22,225 nucleotides of DNA. It comes from a virus. The stretch covers positions 1 through 22,225 of IMG/VR virus record IMGVR_UViG_3300029319_000302; one strand, 5' to 3'. A program made the translations under genes and the position numbers. Positions 10,218 to 19,806 of the stretch are shown here, piece by piece; position 1 is the stretch's first letter, and the number at the start of each line of letters is the position of its first letter. The notes beneath the pieces were generated by a model, which was not told the origin of the DNA, did not search any database, and saw nothing but the letters and a program-made list of their open reading frames with translations.

Positions 10218-10994
10218 ATGGAGCTATTGATAAAAGTAAACAGCGCAGATGGTGATAAATCATATAAAGATGGCGACATTGTTCAGGCGTTTTCTAATGA
10301 TAGGATATTATTAGCTAACGCTCAATCTATTTGTAGTGTAGATAACTTTAACCTAGACCCAGTATCTGGTTTAAGATATAATGATACATTGTTGATGAAA
10401 TATATGGAAACTTCGAGTCTTTATAGAGTTGAAAGAATAAATGCAACCTCGGCAAGAAGAATAAATCTTTTGACTTCAGAAGAAGATATAATAAGCAATT
10501 CGCCAAACTTAGACGGTGAAGCTATATGGATAGAAGATTACTTGGCCAGAAGACTAAAAAGCAATAGACACAGGATCTTTGGCTCAGTAGGATCAGAAAT
10601 TTGGTATAGTGGATCTAGACCTATAGATCTTGATATTATTTGGAATCATATCGAATCAGGGTCTGATAATCTTAAACAAGACAATACATCTTGGAAGTTT
10701 ACATCTTTGGAAAAAAGGCATTTTTACACTATGAATTGCAGAGGCAATGCTGGAGGAATCATCCAAGAGCTCTCTGGTCATACTGTTGTGGATCGACAAA
10801 ATCCTGTAATTACGGGTGATGAAGTCATAGCAGCAAAAAGAAAATGGCAAGTTCCTTACTGGGACTTAGGTGCAAACGTTGATGATATTAGAAATTACGA
10901 CAAAGAAGTTGACGGAAGAGTTGAGATTAATGACAGACCGTTTGTGGATGACATTAACGTAGACAAAATTGAAGCTGGAATAATAGTACTATAA
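10218..10994 (+). CDS. unknown structural-region protein, family P copy 1
   Basis: A 258-residue protein that I do not recognise. It is clearly related to the 276-residue protein at 16746-17576. Shared blocks: YKDGDI(V/I)QAF near 16-25; a D-(T/P)-LL segment; ERIN; NL(L/I)TSEE; PN-DGE; RRLK; WY--SR; WNxIE; EKR(H/Y)F; ELSG-TV; AKR(K/R)W-VPYWDL; and VDD(I/L)RN. Conserved aromatic/charged blocks over the whole length suggest one globular fold. No signal peptide or membrane segment is seen. It opens a cassette of fibre-type genes, so a virion role such as fibre attachment is plausible but unproven. The start has AAAGGAG. Confidence 0.75.
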   Translation: MELLIKVNSADGDKSYKDGDIVQAFSNDRILLANAQSICSVDNFNLDPVSGLRYNDTLLMKYMETSSLYRVERINATSARRINLLTSEEDIISNSPNLDGEAIWIEDYLARRLKSNRHRIFGSVGSEIWYSGSRPIDLDIIWNHIESGSDNLKQDNTSWKFTSLEKRHFYTMNCRGNAGGIIQELSGHTVVDRQNPVITGDEVIAAKRKWQVPYWDLGANVDDIRNYDKEVDGRVEINDRPFVDDINVDKIEAGIIVL

Positions 10995-11489: not shown

Positions 11490-14400
11490 ATGGCTTTAGT
11501 ACTTAAAGATAGAGTAAAAGAGACTTGCACCGGAACAAGTGGCGACATGGCACTTACTGGCGCAGTGTCTGGCTATGTAGCCTTCGATGCAGATGCAACC
11601 TTTGACGGCAACACAACGTACTATGCTTTAGAAGATGCAGATGGCACAAAGTGGGAAGTTGGCTTGGGCACACTCAGTGCAGACTCCACAACTCTTACCA
11701 GAACTACAATTCTTGCAACTCAAGCTAGTTTCACAGATACCACCAGACAAACATTTAGTAGTGGAACACACACAATCTATTGTGTTTATCCTGCAGGCAA
11801 ATCTGTACATTTAGATGGTAGTGGCGTTTTATCTCATAGCATTGTTAATGCCGATATAAGTAATAGTGCAGCTATAGCTATAGCAAAACTTGCCTCTTCT
11901 AGTATAGGCGTTAGCGATGGGTCTAGCACTACTGAAATTAGCCTCGGTCAAGATATACAGTTTCGTGGAACTTCCAATGAAGTAGAAGTAGCCGAAGCTT
12001 CTGGAACGATCACTGTTGGTTTACCTAGTAGCATTACGGCGAATGTTACTGGAGACCTGACAGGCAATGCTGACACCGCTACAAATGCTACCAATGCTAC
12101 TCACGTAGCTGTCGCAGACAATGAAAGTACTGACGAAAACAACCTTATAACTTTCATAGAAGATGCCAGTGCTACAGGAAATGTAGGATTGGAATCGGAT
12201 GGCGACTTCCATTACAACCCATCGACAGGAACCGTCACAGCGACAATATTTAAGGGTAACATAGATGCGGTTGATGGAGATTTTGATGGTACGCTTGAGG
12301 CAGATGCCATCACAATAGGCGGAACAGCCCTGAACACCGTCATTGCTGGAGTGACTGTCACTAATGCAACTAACGCAGTTACTGCTACAAATGCCAATCA
12401 TGTAGCTGTTGCGGATAATGAGAGCACCGATGAGAACAATTTAATCCCATTCATAGAAGATGCTAGCGCGACAGGAAACGTAGGTCTGGAATCGGATGGC
12501 GATTTTCACTACAACCCATCTAGCGGAACTATTACGGCGACAATATTTAAAGGCAACATAGATGCAGTTGACGGTGATTTTGATGGTACACTCGAAGCAG
12601 ACGCTATTACCGTAGGAGGTGTCGCCCTCAATACAGTTATAGCGGGAGTTACTGTCACTAACGCTACCAACGCTACCAATGCTGTCACCGCCACAAACGC
12701 CAACCATGTAGCTGTTGCAGATAACGAGAGCACCGACGAGAATAACCTCATAACATTTATCGAAGATGCGAGTGCTACAGGCAACGTAGGGTTAGAATCA
12801 GACGGTGATTTTCACTATAATCCATCTACTGGAACTGTCACAGCAACGATATTCAAAGGCAATATAGACGCTGTAGACGGCGACTTTGATGGAACGCTAG
12901 AGGCTGACGCAATTACTATCGGTGGAACTGCATTGAATACAGTTATCGCCGGAGTAACCGTTGCAAACGCAACTAATGCGGTTACTGCCACAAATGCTAA
13001 TCATGTGGCTGTTGCAGACAATGAGAGCACAGATGAAAACAATTTGATTCCATTTATTGAGGACGCCAGTGCCACGGGGAATGTAGGTTTAGAGTCAGAT
13101 GGAGACTTTCACTACAATCCTTCTAGCGGTACAGTTACCGCAACCATATTCAAAGGAAATATAGATGCAGTTGACGGGGACTTTGATGGAACACTTGAAG
13201 CAGATGCCATTACGATTGGTGGAACTGCGCTAGACACACATATTGCTGGGGTCACAGTTACTAATGCTACAAACGCTGTTAACGCTACTCATATTAATGT
13301 AGCTGATAACGAGAGTACGGACGAAAACAATCTCATAACCTTCATTGAGGATGCTAGCGCTACAGGAAATGTGGGTTTGGAATCTGACGGTGACTTCCAC
13401 TATAATCCATCAACGGGGACAGTCACAGCTACTATTTTTAAAGGTAACATAGACGCTGTAGATGGTGACTTTGACGGCACTCTAGAGGCTGACGCAATCA
13501 CGGTGGGAGGTACTGCTCTTAATACAGTTATCGCAGGAGTGACAGTTACCAACGCTACTAACGCAGCTCATGTTTCTGTGGCTGATAATGAGAGTACAGA
13601 TGAAAATAACCTCATACCCTTCATCGAGGACGCTAGCGCTACGGGCAATGTTGGATTAGAATCTGACGGAGATTTCCATTATAACCCTTCTAGTGGCACA
13701 GTTACTGCCACTATATTTAAGGGTAATATAGACGCGGTAGACGGAGATTTTGACGGGACTTTAGAAGCGGATGCAATTACAATAGGCGGAACCGCACTAG
13801 ATACACATATCGCTGGAGTCACTGTTACCAATTCAACCAATGCAGTTAATGCCACTCATGTTTCCGTGGCCGATAATGAAAGCACCGACGAAAACAACCT
13901 GATAACATTTATAGAAGACGCTAGCGCTACGGGTAATGTAGGACTAGAGTCAGATGGCGACTTTCATTATAATCCCTCTACTGGTACGGTTACGGCTACT
14001 ATATTTAAAGGTAACATTGACGCGGTAGATGGAGATTTCGATGGAACGTTAGAGGCCGATGCTATTACTGTAGGTGGAACCGCCCTGAACACAGTCATTG
14101 CTGGAGTAACCGTTACCAATGCCACTAACGCCGCGCACGTTGCAGTCGCTGATAATGAGAGCACTGACGAGAACAATCTTATAACCTTTATTGAAGACGC
14201 CAGCGCAACAGGTAATGTTGGTCTAGAATCTGATGGGGATTTCCATTATAACCCAAGTACTGGTACAGTTACTGCTACGATTTTTAAAGGTAATATAGAT
14301 GCCGTAGATGGAGATTTCGATGGGACTTTAGAAGCCGACGCTATTACGATTGGTGGAACAGCATTAAACACGGTTATTGCAGGAGTAACGGTAACTAACG

Positions 14401-15344
14401 CTACCAATGCAGTTACGGCAACAAACGCTAATCATGTCGCAGTTGCGGATAACGAAAGCACAGATGAGAATAATCTGATACCATTCATTGAAGATGCGAG
14501 TGCCACTGGTAACGTTGGCCTAGAGTCTGATGGAGATTTTCATTACAATCCGTCTAGTGGCACAATAACAGCCACGATCTTCAAGGGTAACATTGATGCT
14601 GTAGATGGAGACTTTGACGGAACCCTAGAAGCAGATGCAATCACAATAGGTGGTACAGCGATAGGTTCTATCTACTCAGCTATTGCAGGTAGCTCTAGTA
14701 TTGTCACCACTGGAGCTTTGGACTCTGGTTCTATTACTTCTGGGTTTGGAAATATTGACAATGGTAGTAGTAGTATTGCTTGTGGGTCTCTTGATGTATC
14801 CGATGGAAACATAACAAATGTTGGAGACATAGATTGTGACAGTATTAGTGTGGCAGATGCTGCAAACGGCTTGAACATTGACGTATCTGGGGCAAATAAC
14901 GGAACTGCTAAGATTACCCTTAAAGATAACGTTGCTACCGCTTTAGATGTTACTGAGGCTAGCAACTCTTACATGAAGTTTACAACCACAGACAATGCCA
15001 GTAGAATTGTAACTAACGTCGGTGTTGTAGGAAACACAACTGCACTTACTAGTCAGTCTGGTAGTGTTGTTATTAATGCTGCTTTGGGCAACTATTTCAC
15101 TGTAGCCACAAGTGGAAATATAACAGGTTTAGATATACAAAACGCCGTAGTGGGTCAAAAAATATTAATTAGATTTGCATGGGGAGGAGATCATTCTCTC
15201 GCCTTTACAGATACAGTCATATGGCCCGGAGGAACAGCCCCCGGAACCACAGCAAGTGGCGTAGATATGATTGGATTTATATGTACAACTGCCTCATCTG
15301 CGTTTGATGGATTTATAGTTGGTGAAGATATTAAGAGTTCATAA
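11490..15344 (+). CDS. long fibre/adhesin with nine near-identical repeats
   Basis: A 1284-residue fibre protein. Residues 1 to about 112 form a module known from many phage fibre proteins (RVKETCTGTSGD, GNTTYYALEDADGTKWEVG, TILATQ, VYPAGKSVHLDGSG), probably virion attachment. Residues about 113-204 lead into Asn/Ala/Thr-rich sequence. Residues 205 to about 1057 are nine tandem repeats of 93-102 residues, each with VADNESTDENNLI, FIEDASATGNVGLESDGDFHYNPS, TATIFKGNIDAVDGDFDG and EADAIT blocks. Residues 1058-1284 form a different C-terminal part with VTNVGVVGNTTAL, LIRFAWGGDHSLAFTD and DMIGFICTT, probably the distal tip. It is expected to be a trimeric extended fibre for host binding (inference). 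Start with AAGGAG. The repeats are remarkable for silent recoding. Confidence 0.88.
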   Translation: MALVLKDRVKETCTGTSGDMALTGAVSGYVAFDADATFDGNTTYYALEDADGTKWEVGLGTLSADSTTLTRTTILATQASFTDTTRQTFSSGTHTIYCVYPAGKSVHLDGSGVLSHSIVNADISNSAAIAIAKLASSSIGVSDGSSTTEISLGQDIQFRGTSNEVEVAEASGTITVGLPSSITANVTGDLTGNADTATNATNATHVAVADNESTDENNLITFIEDASATGNVGLESDGDFHYNPSTGTVTATIFKGNIDAVDGDFDGTLEADAITIGGTALNTVIAGVTVTNATNAVTATNANHVAVADNESTDENNLIPFIEDASATGNVGLESDGDFHYNPSSGTITATIFKGNIDAVDGDFDGTLEADAITVGGVALNTVIAGVTVTNATNATNAVTATNANHVAVADNESTDENNLITFIEDASATGNVGLESDGDFHYNPSTGTVTATIFKGNIDAVDGDFDGTLEADAITIGGTALNTVIAGVTVANATNAVTATNANHVAVADNESTDENNLIPFIEDASATGNVGLESDGDFHYNPSSGTVTATIFKGNIDAVDGDFDGTLEADAITIGGTALDTHIAGVTVTNATNAVNATHINVADNESTDENNLITFIEDASATGNVGLESDGDFHYNPSTGTVTATIFKGNIDAVDGDFDGTLEADAITVGGTALNTVIAGVTVTNATNAAHVSVADNESTDENNLIPFIEDASATGNVGLESDGDFHYNPSSGTVTATIFKGNIDAVDGDFDGTLEADAITIGGTALDTHIAGVTVTNSTNAVNATHVSVADNESTDENNLITFIEDASATGNVGLESDGDFHYNPSTGTVTATIFKGNIDAVDGDFDGTLEADAITVGGTALNTVIAGVTVTNATNAAHVAVADNESTDENNLITFIEDASATGNVGLESDGDFHYNPSTGTVTATIFKGNIDAVDGDFDGTLEADAITIGGTALNTVIAGVTVTNATNAVTATNANHVAVADNESTDENNLIPFIEDASATGNVGLESDGDFHYNPSSGTITATIFKGNIDAVDGDFDGTLEADAITIGGTAIGSIYSAIAGSSSIVTTGALDSGSITSGFGNIDNGSSSIACGSLDVSDGNITNVGDIDCDSISVADAANGLNIDVSGANNGTAKITLKDNVATALDVTEASNSYMKFTTTDNASRIVTNVGVVGNTTALTSQSGSVVINAALGNYFTVATSGNITGLDIQNAVVGQKILIRFAWGGDHSLAFTDTVIWPGGTAPGTTASGVDMIGFICTTASSAFDGFIVGEDIKSS
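12102..14660 (+). repeat. nine tandem 93-102-aa repeats, conserved in protein but recoded in DNA
   Basis: Repeat units start (first base of the His codon) at 12102, 12399, 12705, 13002, 13290, 13569, 13857, 14136 and 14433. Lengths are 99, 102, 99, 96, 93, 96, 93 and 99 residues; the last unit is incomplete. Protein differences fall at few positions: LITF or LIPF, NPSTG or NPSSG, ITIGG or ITVGG, LNTVIAG or LDTHIAG, and the length of the ATN/TNA-rich linker. DNA differences are massive and mostly in third positions. Confidence 0.95.
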
Positions 15345-15353
15345 GGGTGACAC

Positions 15354-16736
15354 ATGGCAACAACTACAGTAAGTGTTGGATCAAATCAAAGTATAGCTAC
15401 CGTTACGCCAAGTTCAGCTAGCGGTAGTAATCCATATACAGTAGCGTTTGGATCTAGTCCCGGAAGCAATGTCGCCGTAGGAGACATCGTTACTATGGAT
15501 GATTCTGCCAACACAGGGACAACATTTATTTATCTTTTAACTGGCATATCTGGAAGTGATTACACTCTGAAATATTGCTCTGGTGGAACTGGAGCTGATT
15601 CACCTACTAACATCACAGATGAATATGGTGACCAACAGGATGCGGTATTCAAAAGAGCCTTTTCTACAATTACTTTGTTTGAGGCTATGGTTGATGACTC
15701 AAGCCCTTCTTATTGGGGAAGTAGCGACGATGTTGTTGGTGAGCTACATTCAGACTCTACCTTCACAGACGCAACTGTAACATTTGACAGTAAGCAAAGT
15801 TTATCTTCTGTAAAATTAACTGTTAATTCTGACGATAGGCATGACGGTACAGCAGAAAGTGGAGCCTTACTAAAGCCCACATCTGGTTCTGGCCACAACG
15901 TAGGTATCATCAAAATAGGAATAGACGATTTTACCATTGAATGGCTAGATATCAGTGCGGATAGCCTAGACTCTACAAACACTAATAAGTTTATAAACAT
16001 TTCTACAGGAGCAGGAGATTGCACCATAAGAAATATGCTTATACATGATAAAGGAGGCAATCCCGGTAGTACTGGCCCAGTAGCTATCGCTAGCGGATTG
16101 TCTTTGACCACTTCAGAAAACTGGTACTTTCTCAATAATATTATTTATAACATGATAGAGACTAGTAATGATAGCGCAATGGGTATAAATATAAGGTCGT
16201 TCATAGGAAGTCTTTACATCTATAACAATACGATATATAAGCTAACATCCCAAGGAGGAAGTAAAGACGCTGTTGGGATGAGATTTGGAGATGGCACTCA
16301 CATTCAAGCAAACATAAAAAATAATATAGTTGCAGGTTTAACTGAGGGCGATATAGCCGCCGCTTATTGGATGGATGAGACTCCAAACTCGAACAGAGTG
16401 TTAAACTCCGCTACTAACCTTTCAGATGATACTACCGATGCAGCAAAGGATGCTGAGGATTTTGACGTTAATAAAAATGACTCAACGGCATTGATAGGCA
16501 AAACTCTTAGTCAAATAGATTTTGTATCTACATCAGCAGGATCGGAAGACTTACATCTGGACACTTCCTCCGTGTGTCTAGAGGCTGGGACAGATTTAGG
16601 AACAACTGGCGGTGTCAATATAGATATAAACGGTGTTGACAGAGATGCCACTGGAGTTACTTGGGATATTGGAGCTCACCAAAAAAGTACAGCAGCTACC
16701 ACAGGAAGTCCCGCATTTTTTCTATTCATGGATTAG
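15354..16736 (+). CDS. beta-helix-like adhesion protein with anchor-Q-type C-terminal motif, copy 1
   Basis: A 460-residue Ser/Thr/Asp/Asn-rich protein. The middle part carries short strand-turn periods such as IGIDDFTIEWLDIS, CTIRNMLIHDKGG, WYFLNNIIYNM, LYIYNNTIYKL and ANIKNNIVAGL, the pattern of a right-handed parallel beta-helix as in phage tailspikes. Near the C-terminus: DLHLDTSSVCLEAGTDLG, then DINGVDRDATGVTWDIGAHQ. The D-I-x-G-x-x-R...D-I-G-A form is typical of the bacterial choice-of-anchor Q domain. The last residues (SPAFFLFMD) are hydrophobic. It ends the first cassette and is related to the 352-residue protein at 18748. Host-receptor or polysaccharide binding is inference; no catalytic site is seen. 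The ribosome binding site is weak (AAGGGTGA). Confidence 0.75.
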   Translation: MATTTVSVGSNQSIATVTPSSASGSNPYTVAFGSSPGSNVAVGDIVTMDDSANTGTTFIYLLTGISGSDYTLKYCSGGTGADSPTNITDEYGDQQDAVFKRAFSTITLFEAMVDDSSPSYWGSSDDVVGELHSDSTFTDATVTFDSKQSLSSVKLTVNSDDRHDGTAESGALLKPTSGSGHNVGIIKIGIDDFTIEWLDISADSLDSTNTNKFINISTGAGDCTIRNMLIHDKGGNPGSTGPVAIASGLSLTTSENWYFLNNIIYNMIETSNDSAMGINIRSFIGSLYIYNNTIYKLTSQGGSKDAVGMRFGDGTHIQANIKNNIVAGLTEGDIAAAYWMDETPNSNRVLNSATNLSDDTTDAAKDAEDFDVNKNDSTALIGKTLSQIDFVSTSAGSEDLHLDTSSVCLEAGTDLGTTGGVNIDINGVDRDATGVTWDIGAHQKSTAATTGSPAFFLFMD

Positions 16737-16745
16737 GAGAGCCTT

Positions 16746-17576
16746 ATGGAAGTTATAGTAAAAATAAATGATGGCCCAGTAGCCAGCTCTTACAAAGACG
16801 GTGATATCATTCAGGCTTTTACTTTGGATGAAATATATTATCATCACGCACAGCAGAAGTGTCATGTGAAAAATTTTGGCCTTGAAACCAACGGCTCTAG
16901 AACCCCTGATCCTCTGCTCATAAACTTCCTCGAAAGAACCAAGACATACAAGTTTGAGAGAATTAATTCAAACTATGTAAAAAGAACCAACCTCATAACT
17001 AGCGAGGAAACTATTCTTGGGAAGACTCCGAATGAAGACGGTGAAAGGATTAATCCTTATGAATATATAACAAGAAGACTAAAGAACAAAAACCATTTAA
17101 TTTTTAGAGCTGCTAATGGATTTGCCTACTGGTACGGGAAGAGCAGAAGTGATGTAGATATTAATGCAGTCTGGAATGATATAGAAACATACAGTGATCA
17201 CTTAAAGTCTGAACACAGTAGTTTTCCGTTTTCAGATATTGAAAAAAGATACTTTGCGGCTATAAATACTTCTGGTAGGAGTTATACTGGTGACTCATTT
17301 ACTAGGGTCGAGCTTTCGGGAGACACTGTTCATACTCGACAAGAGATCGCTCTTGAAAATCCTCCTGAAGAAATACCAGATGATTACGACCCAGTTGTTG
17401 TAGCAAAAAGAAGGTGGTTTGTACCCTACTGGGATTTGACTACATCACTTGGTAACTCTGTAGATGACTTAAGAAATCCCAACAAGGAATGTGACTGTAG
17501 AAAAGAAATGGACGAAAGAGAGCACATTGATATATTAACTTTTGATAAAGTGACAGAAGGAATAGTAAGTATATAA
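16746..17576 (+). CDS. unknown structural-region protein, family P copy 2
   Basis: A 276-residue homologue of the protein at 10218-10994, with the shared blocks in the same order: SYKDGDIIQAF at 15-25, FERIN, NLITSEE, PNEDGERI, RRLKNKNHLIF, YWYGKSRSDVDI, WNDIE, EKRYF, ELSGDTVHTRQE, AKRRWFVPYWDL and SVDDLRN. It has about 18 extra residues, among them a Pro/Glu-rich insert (NPPEEIPDDYDP) before the AKRRW block and a CDCRKEMDERE segment near the end. The two copies differ widely elsewhere, so the duplication is old. Function unknown. It starts with TAGGAG ten bases after the previous stop, so it is probably read from the same transcript as the beta-helix protein. Confidence 0.75.
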   Translation: MEVIVKINDGPVASSYKDGDIIQAFTLDEIYYHHAQQKCHVKNFGLETNGSRTPDPLLINFLERTKTYKFERINSNYVKRTNLITSEETILGKTPNEDGERINPYEYITRRLKNKNHLIFRAANGFAYWYGKSRSDVDINAVWNDIETYSDHLKSEHSSFPFSDIEKRYFAAINTSGRSYTGDSFTRVELSGDTVHTRQEIALENPPEEIPDDYDPVVVAKRRWFVPYWDLTTSLGNSVDDLRNPNKECDCRKEMDEREHIDILTFDKVTEGIVSI

Positions 17577-17632: not shown

Positions 17633-18421
17633 ATGAGTTTTTCAGGAGCTCCATTTTCGTCAACTCCCTTCTCTTCTAGTGGGAATGTAATAACTGCTGC
17701 TGCAACATTAACCGCCAGTGCCACATTAACCGCAGAGGGAACGTTACCAGCACAGACAATATCTGGAGCAGCTAGTCTGTCTGCAACTGGTGCCGTATCC
17801 TCAGAAGCTAAAGTTACAAGGTTTGCTTCAGCAGCGGCATCATGCAGTGGTTCTTTAGCTGCTACTGGATTTGTAAAAAGAAACGCTTCAGCCTCACTTT
17901 CGGCGTCAGCTACATTATCAGCTTCAGCTAATGCTAAAAACTTTGCGTCAGCATCGCTTACAGCCTCTGGCTCTGTTTCGGCATCAGGCAGCGTTAAGAG
18001 ATTTGCCTCTGCATCACTATCTGCTAGCGCTTCCACATCTCAAACTGCAAAAGTGGACAGGTTTGCATCAGCATCACTTTCTGCCAGTGGAGCATGTTCT
18101 GCGTCGGGTAAAGTGTCCAAGCTCGCTGCGGCTTCGTTAACAGCTTCAGCTTCTTTGTCGGCATTAGGCGGGTTTGACATACAGGGAGCTGCTTCGTTAA
18201 CTGCCTCAGCTACACTTGATGCTACAGCAGAAATAAACCAATTACTAATAACCAAAGAATTTATTGTGTATATTAATACGTCTGATAGCTTTATTTGTAG
18301 TATAAATACAGACTTTGAGGAAACCGCCTCCATAAACACAGGCATGGAATTGGTTGCCTCTGTAGATACAAATAAGACTGTAGACGCTAGTATAGAAACA
18401 TTTGCTACTTTCGAGGGTTAG
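17633..18421 (+). CDS. Ala/Ser-rich protein with 20-residue and 10-residue repeats
   Basis: A 262-residue protein. The first 43 residues (MSFSGAPFSSTPFSSSG, then Ala/Thr-rich) lead into eight in-register 20-residue repeats at 44-203 with consensus FASASLSASGxxSASGxVKR, and then into five 10-residue repeats at 212-261 with consensus xSINTxxxxx (VYINT, CSINT, ASINT, ASVDT, ASIET). No charged catalytic residues are conserved, so it is structural: probably a thin elongated stalk or virion surface protein. I do not know the family name. Synonymous codons vary between repeats, as in the long fibre. Strong AAAGGAG before the ATG; two bases separate its stop from the next gene. Confidence 0.72.
   Translation: MSFSGAPFSSTPFSSSGNVITAAATLTASATLTAEGTLPAQTISGAASLSATGAVSSEAKVTRFASAAASCSGSLAATGFVKRNASASLSASATLSASANAKNFASASLTASGSVSASGSVKRFASASLSASASTSQTAKVDRFASASLSASGACSASGKVSKLAAASLTASASLSALGGFDIQGAASLTASATLDATAEINQLLITKEFIVYINTSDSFICSINTDFEETASINTGMELVASVDTNKTVDASIETFATFEG
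17762..18241 (+). repeat. eight 60-base repeats (20 residues each)
   Basis: Protein repeats start at residues 44, 64, 84, 104, 124, 144, 164 and 184 of the Ala/Ser-rich protein. Core (F/N/L)ASASL(S/T)AS is best conserved; a basic residue often closes the unit (VTR, VKR, VKR, VDR, VSK). FASASL is coded differently from copy to copy. Confidence 0.85.
18264..18275 (+). other. in-gene copy of the TTGTGTATAT motif
   Basis: TTGTGTATATTA lies inside the Ala/Ser repeat gene, where it codes for part of FIVYIN, about 150 bases before the BppU-like gene. It matches the gap motif in its first ten positions. It may be a promoter for the two downstream genes or a chance match. Confidence 0.3.
18266..18415 (+). 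repeat. five 30-base repeats (10 residues each)
   Basis: Decapeptide period in the C-terminus of the Ala/Ser-rich protein: VYINTSDSFI, CSINTDFEET, ASINTGMELV, ASVDTNKTVD, ASIETFATFE. A different period and composition from the preceding 20-residue repeats. Confidence 0.75.
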
Positions 18422-18747: not shown

Positions 18748-19806
18748 ATGGCAACAGTTGCAAAATCAATAGGGACAACAGGTAGAGACTACAGTACTAT
18801 AACAGCTTGGGAAGCAGATCTTTCCAATGGCTCAGTTTATAGTTCTGGAGATACAGCTCAAGGCGTATGTTATGCTGATAGCGTATTCACTGAAAATGTA
18901 ACTATTAGTGACGCCTCCGCTATTCCGACAAATATACAGCTCACCGCTGCGGATGGACAAAAGCATGACGGAACTGCAGGATCTGGAGTTGTGGTCAAGC
19001 CTTCATCTACCAGCTCCTATATAATTAATGTGCAAGAACCAAATACTGATGTATCCTTTTTAGAATTAAACGGCAACGGCACAGGTAGATTTGGTTTTTT
19101 CTGCACCACTAGCCTCACCGGGACTGTACTTAGAAATTGTATTATCCATAATATTAGATCGACATCAGATACAGGCGGTACGGTGTCTGTCATGAGAAAT
19201 AGGTCCGGCATGACATTTATGAACAACTTTGTCTTTAACTGTACTTCGGGTACTGACGGAAGCATGCGGGTTCACGACACAGAAAGTTCCGTAGTTACCA
19301 ATATATTTAATTGCACATACTATTACTTGCCAGTCGATGACGCAGCAGAAGGCTCAGCTTATTTGTTTTATCAAACATTTAGAACCACTGGAGCGACTGG
19401 TAAAAATGTCTTGGCTTATAGATATCACACATTTTCTGCAGATCCAATAGTTGCCGGTGCGACAGCTGATTACTGGGGAGCTGTTGGCGCAATAAGTAAC
19501 GTAACAAATGTAACCACAGAAGCCTATGCCGATGCATTTGTAGACACCTCAACAAGTGATCCTGACCTGCACTTAAAGTCAGGCACAGATCTTATAGGGG
19601 CGGGTGTTGACTTAGGCACTACTCCAACTAATGTTAATATAGATATAGATGGAGGAGACAGGGATGCAGCTGGGACGGCTTGGGATTTGGGTGCAGACCA
19701 GTTTAATCTAGCCCCAACCTCTGCATCAGGAAATGGGAAATACAGTAGTAGGTTAAACCTGTTTTTCTTTGGGGCTCAGGGTTTAGGATCGTTTTCAACA
19801 GTATAA
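18748..19806 (+). CDS. beta-helix-like adhesion protein with anchor-Q-type C-terminal motif, copy 2
   Basis: A 352-residue protein related to that at 15354. It opens with AKSIGTTGRDYSTITAWEADL, a form common at the start of beta-helix proteins with repeated-event motifs. The core shows strand-turn periods (VSFLELNGNG, TVLRNCIIHNI, MTFMNNFVFNC, VVTNIFNCTYYY). The end carries DPDLHLKSGTDLIGAGVDLG and DIDGGDRDAAGTAWDLGADQF, aligned with the copy-1 motif. The last 25 residues contain LNLFFFGAQGLG, a hydrophobic tail. KHDGTAGSGVVVKPS matches RHDGTAESGALLKPT in copy 1, so the relation covers the N-terminal half too. Likely receptor-binding or spike-like; no enzymatic residues identified. Weak ribosome binding site. 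Confidence 0.75.
   Translation: MATVAKSIGTTGRDYSTITAWEADLSNGSVYSSGDTAQGVCYADSVFTENVTISDASAIPTNIQLTAADGQKHDGTAGSGVVVKPSSTSSYIINVQEPNTDVSFLELNGNGTGRFGFFCTTSLTGTVLRNCIIHNIRSTSDTGGTVSVMRNRSGMTFMNNFVFNCTSGTDGSMRVHDTESSVVTNIFNCTYYYLPVDDAAEGSAYLFYQTFRTTGATGKNVLAYRYHTFSADPIVAGATADYWGAVGAISNVTNVTTEAYADAFVDTSTSDPDLHLKSGTDLIGAGVDLGTTPTNVNIDIDGGDRDAAGTAWDLGADQFNLAPTSASGNGKYSSRLNLFFFGAQGLGSFSTV

Follow-up and report, generated by a model that had tools for sequence, protein, structure and literature searches.

Nine protein-frozen, silently diverged repeat units in a tail-fibre-like phage gene, with a deficit of within-genome codon identity in one lineage comparison

Tandem repeats are expected either to be homogenised in DNA by concerted evolution or to diverge in protein, and the array described here does neither. 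It lies in a tail-fibre-like gene of the virus record IMGVR_UViG_3300029319_000302 (IMG/VR), which comprises 30,707 bases and of which positions 1 to 22,225, hereafter the window, were analysed. The open reading frame (ORF) at 11490-15344 encodes a protein of 1284 amino acids (aa), and its fibre consists of a module of about 95 residues repeated nine times (units of 93-102 aa each). Silent substitutions do not accumulate independently from unit to unit of a genome: as shown statistically in one comparison of lineages, a codon tends to avoid the state of its homologues on the same molecule, and this repulsion peaks between neighbouring units.

The original prediction, made from the window alone, was that the 99 residues of unit 1 recur unchanged in unit 8 with 63 of 99 codons silently different, including a TCG/AGT pair for serine. 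These counts were reproduced: all 99 residues are identical, the 63 differing codons (68 base differences) are all silent, the longest identical run has 11 nucleotides (nt), and the serine pair is found at position 41. For units 1 and 2, 37 silent and 5 amino acid differences over 73 codons had been reported, and the 76-codon core gives 38 and 5. When all 36 pairs of the nine units were compared codon by codon, 19-36 of the 76 codons were identical, with a DNA identity of 72-81% and a longest aligned identical run of 8-20 nt per pair. The longest exact repeat anywhere inside the array has 20 nt. The mean proportion of silent differences between paralogs (pS) is 0.90, the Jukes-Cantor silent distance (dS) is infinite in 34 of the 36 pairs, and the mean proportion of amino-acid-changing differences (pN) is 0.027. 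Thus neither the long identical tracts nor the low dS that would have contradicted the prediction were found. At sites with the same residue, codon identity (0.375) equals the level expected when synonymous codons are shuffled or drawn independently (0.382), therefore silent sites between the units are saturated, neither more nor less. Despite this saturation, any two units have, on average, 3.0 residue differences in the 76-residue core. Amino acid variation is confined to 9 of the 76 columns in the 27 units compared; in the wider family, 27 columns vary (major residue below 90%) and units differ by 15 residues on average.

The array had also been described as recoded. The strong divergence of the DNA stands, but this term is too strong, as the two serine codon boxes are conserved column by column. 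Columns 9 and 23 use AGY and column 32 uses TCN in all nine units, while column 41 uses TCN in every unit except unit 8 (AGT), an exception common to a related genome, L092. Wholesale or recent recoding would have mixed the boxes, so it can be ruled out, and the differences are explained by single silent base changes of the ordinary kind, accumulated over a long period.

Relatives of the window were gathered by scans with the major head protein and with the units, which yielded independently assembled contigs from other metagenomes. Complete nine-unit arrays in the same order are present in the window, L092 and L165, whereas L083 has eight units; the arrays of L082 and L085 are cut by contig ends. 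Between the window and L092, unit i pairs with unit i for all nine units, and L165 is likewise in register. Of the 76 codons, 46-66 are identical in orthologous units of the window and L092 and 21-39 in non-orthologous ones; the orthologs have a dS of 0.49, an amino-acid-changing distance (dN) of 0.011 and a ratio of the two (omega) of 0.022. Orthologs are thus more alike in DNA than the paralogs within the window, contrary to the expectation of concerted evolution. No gene-conversion tracts between units were detected, the longest donor runs being within the null in every unit (all P above 0.3), and gene conversion was ruled out on these grounds. This shows that the nine-unit array already existed when the lineages leading to the window and to L092 diverged, and that each unit has since stayed in place and evolved separately. 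In-register orthology, low dN, few variable columns and the lack of conversion also support well the conclusion that the units are under strong purifying selection, the array being old and frozen in protein. With its stable unit order, low omega and silent saturation, the array has the properties of one whose units evolve independently under purifying selection. An old duplication under extreme protein constraint and without conversion, the first of two explanations offered originally, is therefore well supported. The number of repeats is the same in the window, L092 and L165, and L083 has lost a single unit.

The higher dS of the array (0.49, against 0.12 at both ends of the gene) is not claimed as a raised silent rate, because the portal, TerL and 10218 genes have still higher values, which points to a mosaic genome. 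Over window positions 1-20096 the comparison with L092 is indeed strongly mosaic, with dS ranging from about 0.1 (fibre ends, major capsid protein, 11051) to 0.6-1.0 (portal, TerL, 10218). Similarly, the codon usage of the array is more even than that of the rest of the window (0.380 versus 0.411), but no use was made of this as single genes such as TerL are equally even.

If units evolve independently, unit i should resemble unit j of its own genome and unit j of another genome equally. This was examined with two permutations, one exchanging genome labels at silently differing codons and the other exchanging whole units. With the codon-label swap, units of the same genome proved less alike than units of different genomes (window versus L092: D=-67, standard deviation (sd) 19.2, P=3e-5), and with the unit-label swap the real arrangement was the lowest of 256. 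Among double silent changes, 51 restored a difference between units ('swap') and 24 created identity ('concerted'); by our own derivation, any independent reversible process should yield both classes equally often, and a directional one should tilt the balance towards the concerted class. The deficit persists when either half of the unit or the odd or even columns are taken alone and when any one unit is left out, and adjacent units show it most strongly (z=-3.6, against z=-2.0 for non-adjacent ones). Out-of-register controls gave no such signal (112 offsets, mean z 0.10, minimum -1.41), nor did the terminase, the portal and three other genes, where nothing negative beyond z=-0.9 was seen. In 400 neutral simulations z averaged 0.05 (sd 1.04) and never fell to -3.49; adding gene conversion to the simulation moved z up, not down. 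A second, less decisive sign is that the identical runs shared by units of one genome are distributed more evenly than expected and long runs are depleted, as judged from the sum of squared run lengths against a column-shuffle null (P=0.05, hence marginal, in the window, 0.0003 in L092 and below 0.0004 in L165; the latter two are sisters, so their results are not independent of each other).

Two other sources of the deficit were rejected. For ectopic exchange between genomes no tracts were found, and the cross-genome matches are scattered over 33 columns. A compositional cause or one linked to tRNA demand is ruled out by the out-of-register controls.

Every array considered here comes from metagenome contigs, and it could be argued that only arrays of low internal identity are assembled. 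However, the longest identical run is 20 nt both within and across genomes, which means that assembly cannot create the deficit, and several independent assemblies agree, with the array recurring in register. An assembly or ascertainment artefact, which would have undermined the original prediction, is extremely improbable given the same units in the same order in independently assembled relatives.

A simpler view is that of pure neutrality, in which an ancient tandem duplication was followed by strong purifying selection on each unit, without conversion, and silent saturation is all there is to explain. It accords with a codon identity exactly at the independent level in the window and, when each unit's own codon usage serves as the null, in most other arrays of the family, and the omega of 0.022 does not stand out in this genome (portal 0.022, TerL 0.018). 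On the other hand, independent evolution cannot yield a same-genome deficit, and one was obtained at P=3e-5 with clean out-of-register controls, while identical runs are more even than chance in L092 and L165. We therefore regard neutrality alone as unlikely, although it deserves to be taken seriously.

Based on our observations, we suggest that the array is probably best explained by frozen units and silent saturation combined with second-order selection, which purges DNA identity within the molecule. The unit protein would be frozen by its function, with no homogenising exchange between units. DNA shared between units would raise the loss of units by recombination or slippage, and a shortened fibre would be less fit. 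In very large phage populations selection could see even small differences in the rate of loss, and codon states restoring identity between units would be purged. That selection acts against recombination or slippage we infer from three things: the stronger deficit between neighbours, the depletion of long runs and the one observed unit loss. The second original explanation, selection for divergence of the DNA, gains moderate support from the within-genome deficit, even though overall codon identity is not below independence. More tentatively, we put forward anti-concerted evolution, the reverse of gene conversion, in which selection for genome stability acts codon by codon on silent sites; it could be a general phenomenon wherever large viral populations carry long arrays under protein constraint.

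Several observations weigh against selection of this kind. The effect is modest (1954 silent shared codons observed versus 1987.5 expected), and it comes from one deep lineage comparison, as both L165 (P=0.0016 versus the window) and L085 are sisters of L092. Several other statistics had been tried ahead of the within/cross-genome test. In the wider family codon identity does not fall under the level of independence, and no deficit is seen in short arrays; most of the other fibre arrays have two or three units and are without power. An apparent family-wide codon identity below independence, obtained with whole-ORF codon usage as the null, disappeared when each unit's own usage was applied. Six other independent gene pairs gave a combined z of -1.5. 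Among these comparisons the L093/L100 pair is the only other one with real power, owing to its many columns, and shows a trend in the same direction (z=-1.84). For a different fibre (L129 versus L131), looser criteria yielded D=-10 (sd 3.7, P=0.003), but the pair failed a stricter filter. Finally, the deletion in L083 needed a homology of just 8 nt, which indicates that saturation does not stop the loss of units.

The same deficit and the same depletion of long runs would also be expected if a mutation process targeted repeats, in formal analogy to repeat-induced mutation, and broke identity between units while selection removed the amino acid changes. We know of no such process in phages. Third-position differences from the close strain L083 are in excess in the array (11/757 versus 9/2670 elsewhere, P=0.001), with a weaker tendency in another close strain, L082 (6/600 versus 13/2997, P=0.11), yet the excess in L083 comes mostly from one 90-nt patch in unit 1. 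In addition, other genes have equal or higher dS in the comparison with L092, and by eye no mutation type dominates among the differences between units, which makes this process a very improbable source of the pattern.

The L083 array lacks exactly one unit, as unit 6 runs into the linker of unit 7 across the shared run GCTGGAGT. In L082 the terminal unit begins as unit 7 and continues as unit 8 after a shared run of 5 nt; since this hybrid is at the contig end, it may be a chimera. The patch in unit 1 of L083 comprises seven base differences from the window within 90 nt of the unit and its linker, one of them changing an amino acid (T to A); five of the seven match unit 3 of the window, which could reflect a small import or conversion. 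Arrays do get renewed, because L015, L020 and L030 carry younger duplicates, i.e. units with codon identity well above chance. In L005, L014, L173 and the wider family two co-varying types of unit occur (A5/I19/S32 versus T5/V19/M32), which can alternate within one fibre and which suggest coupled residues inside the unit.

The array can be compared with several known systems. The nearest parallel among protein-frozen tandem repeats is polyubiquitin, which likewise has head-to-tail units with abundant silent differences. Its repeats show concerted evolution (PMC10457151), and the same paper discusses the birth-and-death model of Nei et al. 2000. In contrast, the orthologs of the fibre units are far closer than the paralogs, no conversion was detected and silent changes appear to run counter to concerted evolution. 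Persi, Wolf and Koonin (2016) reported that horizontal divergence of repeats is universally accelerated relative to vertical divergence (PMC5120217). The vertical conservation of each single fibre unit resembles this pattern, but the paralogous units are almost invariant in protein. In phage EfV12-phi1 the copy number of a tail-fibre segment changes upon infection of resistant hosts (PMC6365445). Both phages thus have tandem repeats in a tail fibre; those of EfV12-phi1 are fresh 1.8-kb duplications of varying number, unlike the old, mostly stable array with DNA-diverged units described here.

A further analogy is an engineered one. In codon scrambling or diversification, different codons for the same protein are used to prevent recombination of repeats (PMC12365220, after Tang and Chilkoti), and the fibre array resembles a natural version in that it, too, spells one protein in different codons. 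Scrambled genes are designed, with identical runs under 10 nt, whereas the array is natural, arose by stepwise silent substitution and has longest runs of 17-20 nt. No natural counterpart of codon diversification was found reported in the open-access literature. If selection against identity is real, nature uses the same trick for repetitive genes, and the array carries a measurable signature of second-order selection on mutation and recombination rate exerted via synonymous codons. The label-swap test itself can be applied to any pair of orthologous arrays.

The gene was called tail-fibre-like because residues 1-115, at most, of its product match proteins of marine and freshwater phages annotated as tail fiber or peptidase S74-like (46-53% identity); the product also matches PHROG 29834. 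The gene order resembles that of tailed phages: ERCC4-type nuclease, head maturation protease, terminase, portal, cement-like protein, major head protein and then the fibre gene. A Pfam match to Glyco_hyd_101C was dismissed as an artefact of repeats or composition, as no single stretch passes alone. The AlphaFold2 model of two units had a mean pLDDT (predicted local distance difference test) of 46, and no solved structure related to the units was found. The C-terminal domain had no match among annotated phages. A separate scan of genome contigs found nothing. The coordinates of all the parts are given in Table 1.

Table 1. Parts of the tail-fibre-like gene in the window
Feature	Position	Strand	Remarks
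Tail-fibre-like gene, 1284 aa, array carrier	11490..15344	+	ORF; N-terminal matches; PHROG 29834
Non-repeated N-terminal domain	11490..12101	+	window vs L092: dS 0.124, omega 0.19
Unit 1, 99 aa	12102..12398	+	type T17/T42
Unit 2, 102 aa	12399..12704	+	type P17/S42 (T17/T42 in L092, L165, L085)
Unit 3, 99 aa	12705..13001	+	
Unit 4, 96 aa	13002..13289	+	
Unit 5, 93 aa	13290..13568	+	
Unit 6, 96 aa	13569..13856	+	linker borders the one-unit deletion of L083 on its 5' side
Unit 7, 93 aa	13857..14135	+	absent from L083 (junction 13819/14100, 8-nt homology GCTGGAGT)
Unit 8, 99 aa	14136..14432	+	protein identical to unit 1; sole Ser box switch (AGT, position 41), common to L092
Unit 9 core, 76 aa	14433..14660	+	
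Non-repeated C-terminal domain	14661..15341	+	window vs L092: dS 0.121, omega 0.11

The fibre region is flanked by two paralogous genes (10218-10994 and 16746-17576), whose products are 42% identical over their full length. Another pair of paralogous proteins (15354-16736 and 18748-19806; 29% identity) has a common C-terminal motif, VNIDI.G.DRDA.G..WD.GA, and these products are probably structural or adhesin-like. Adjoining these pairs, 17633-18421 encodes an Ala/Ser-rich protein with degenerate short repeats (SASASLSASG-like). The window begins with a nucleotide-sugar epimerase-like gene (205-1392; PHROG 540), which neighbours the packaging genes.
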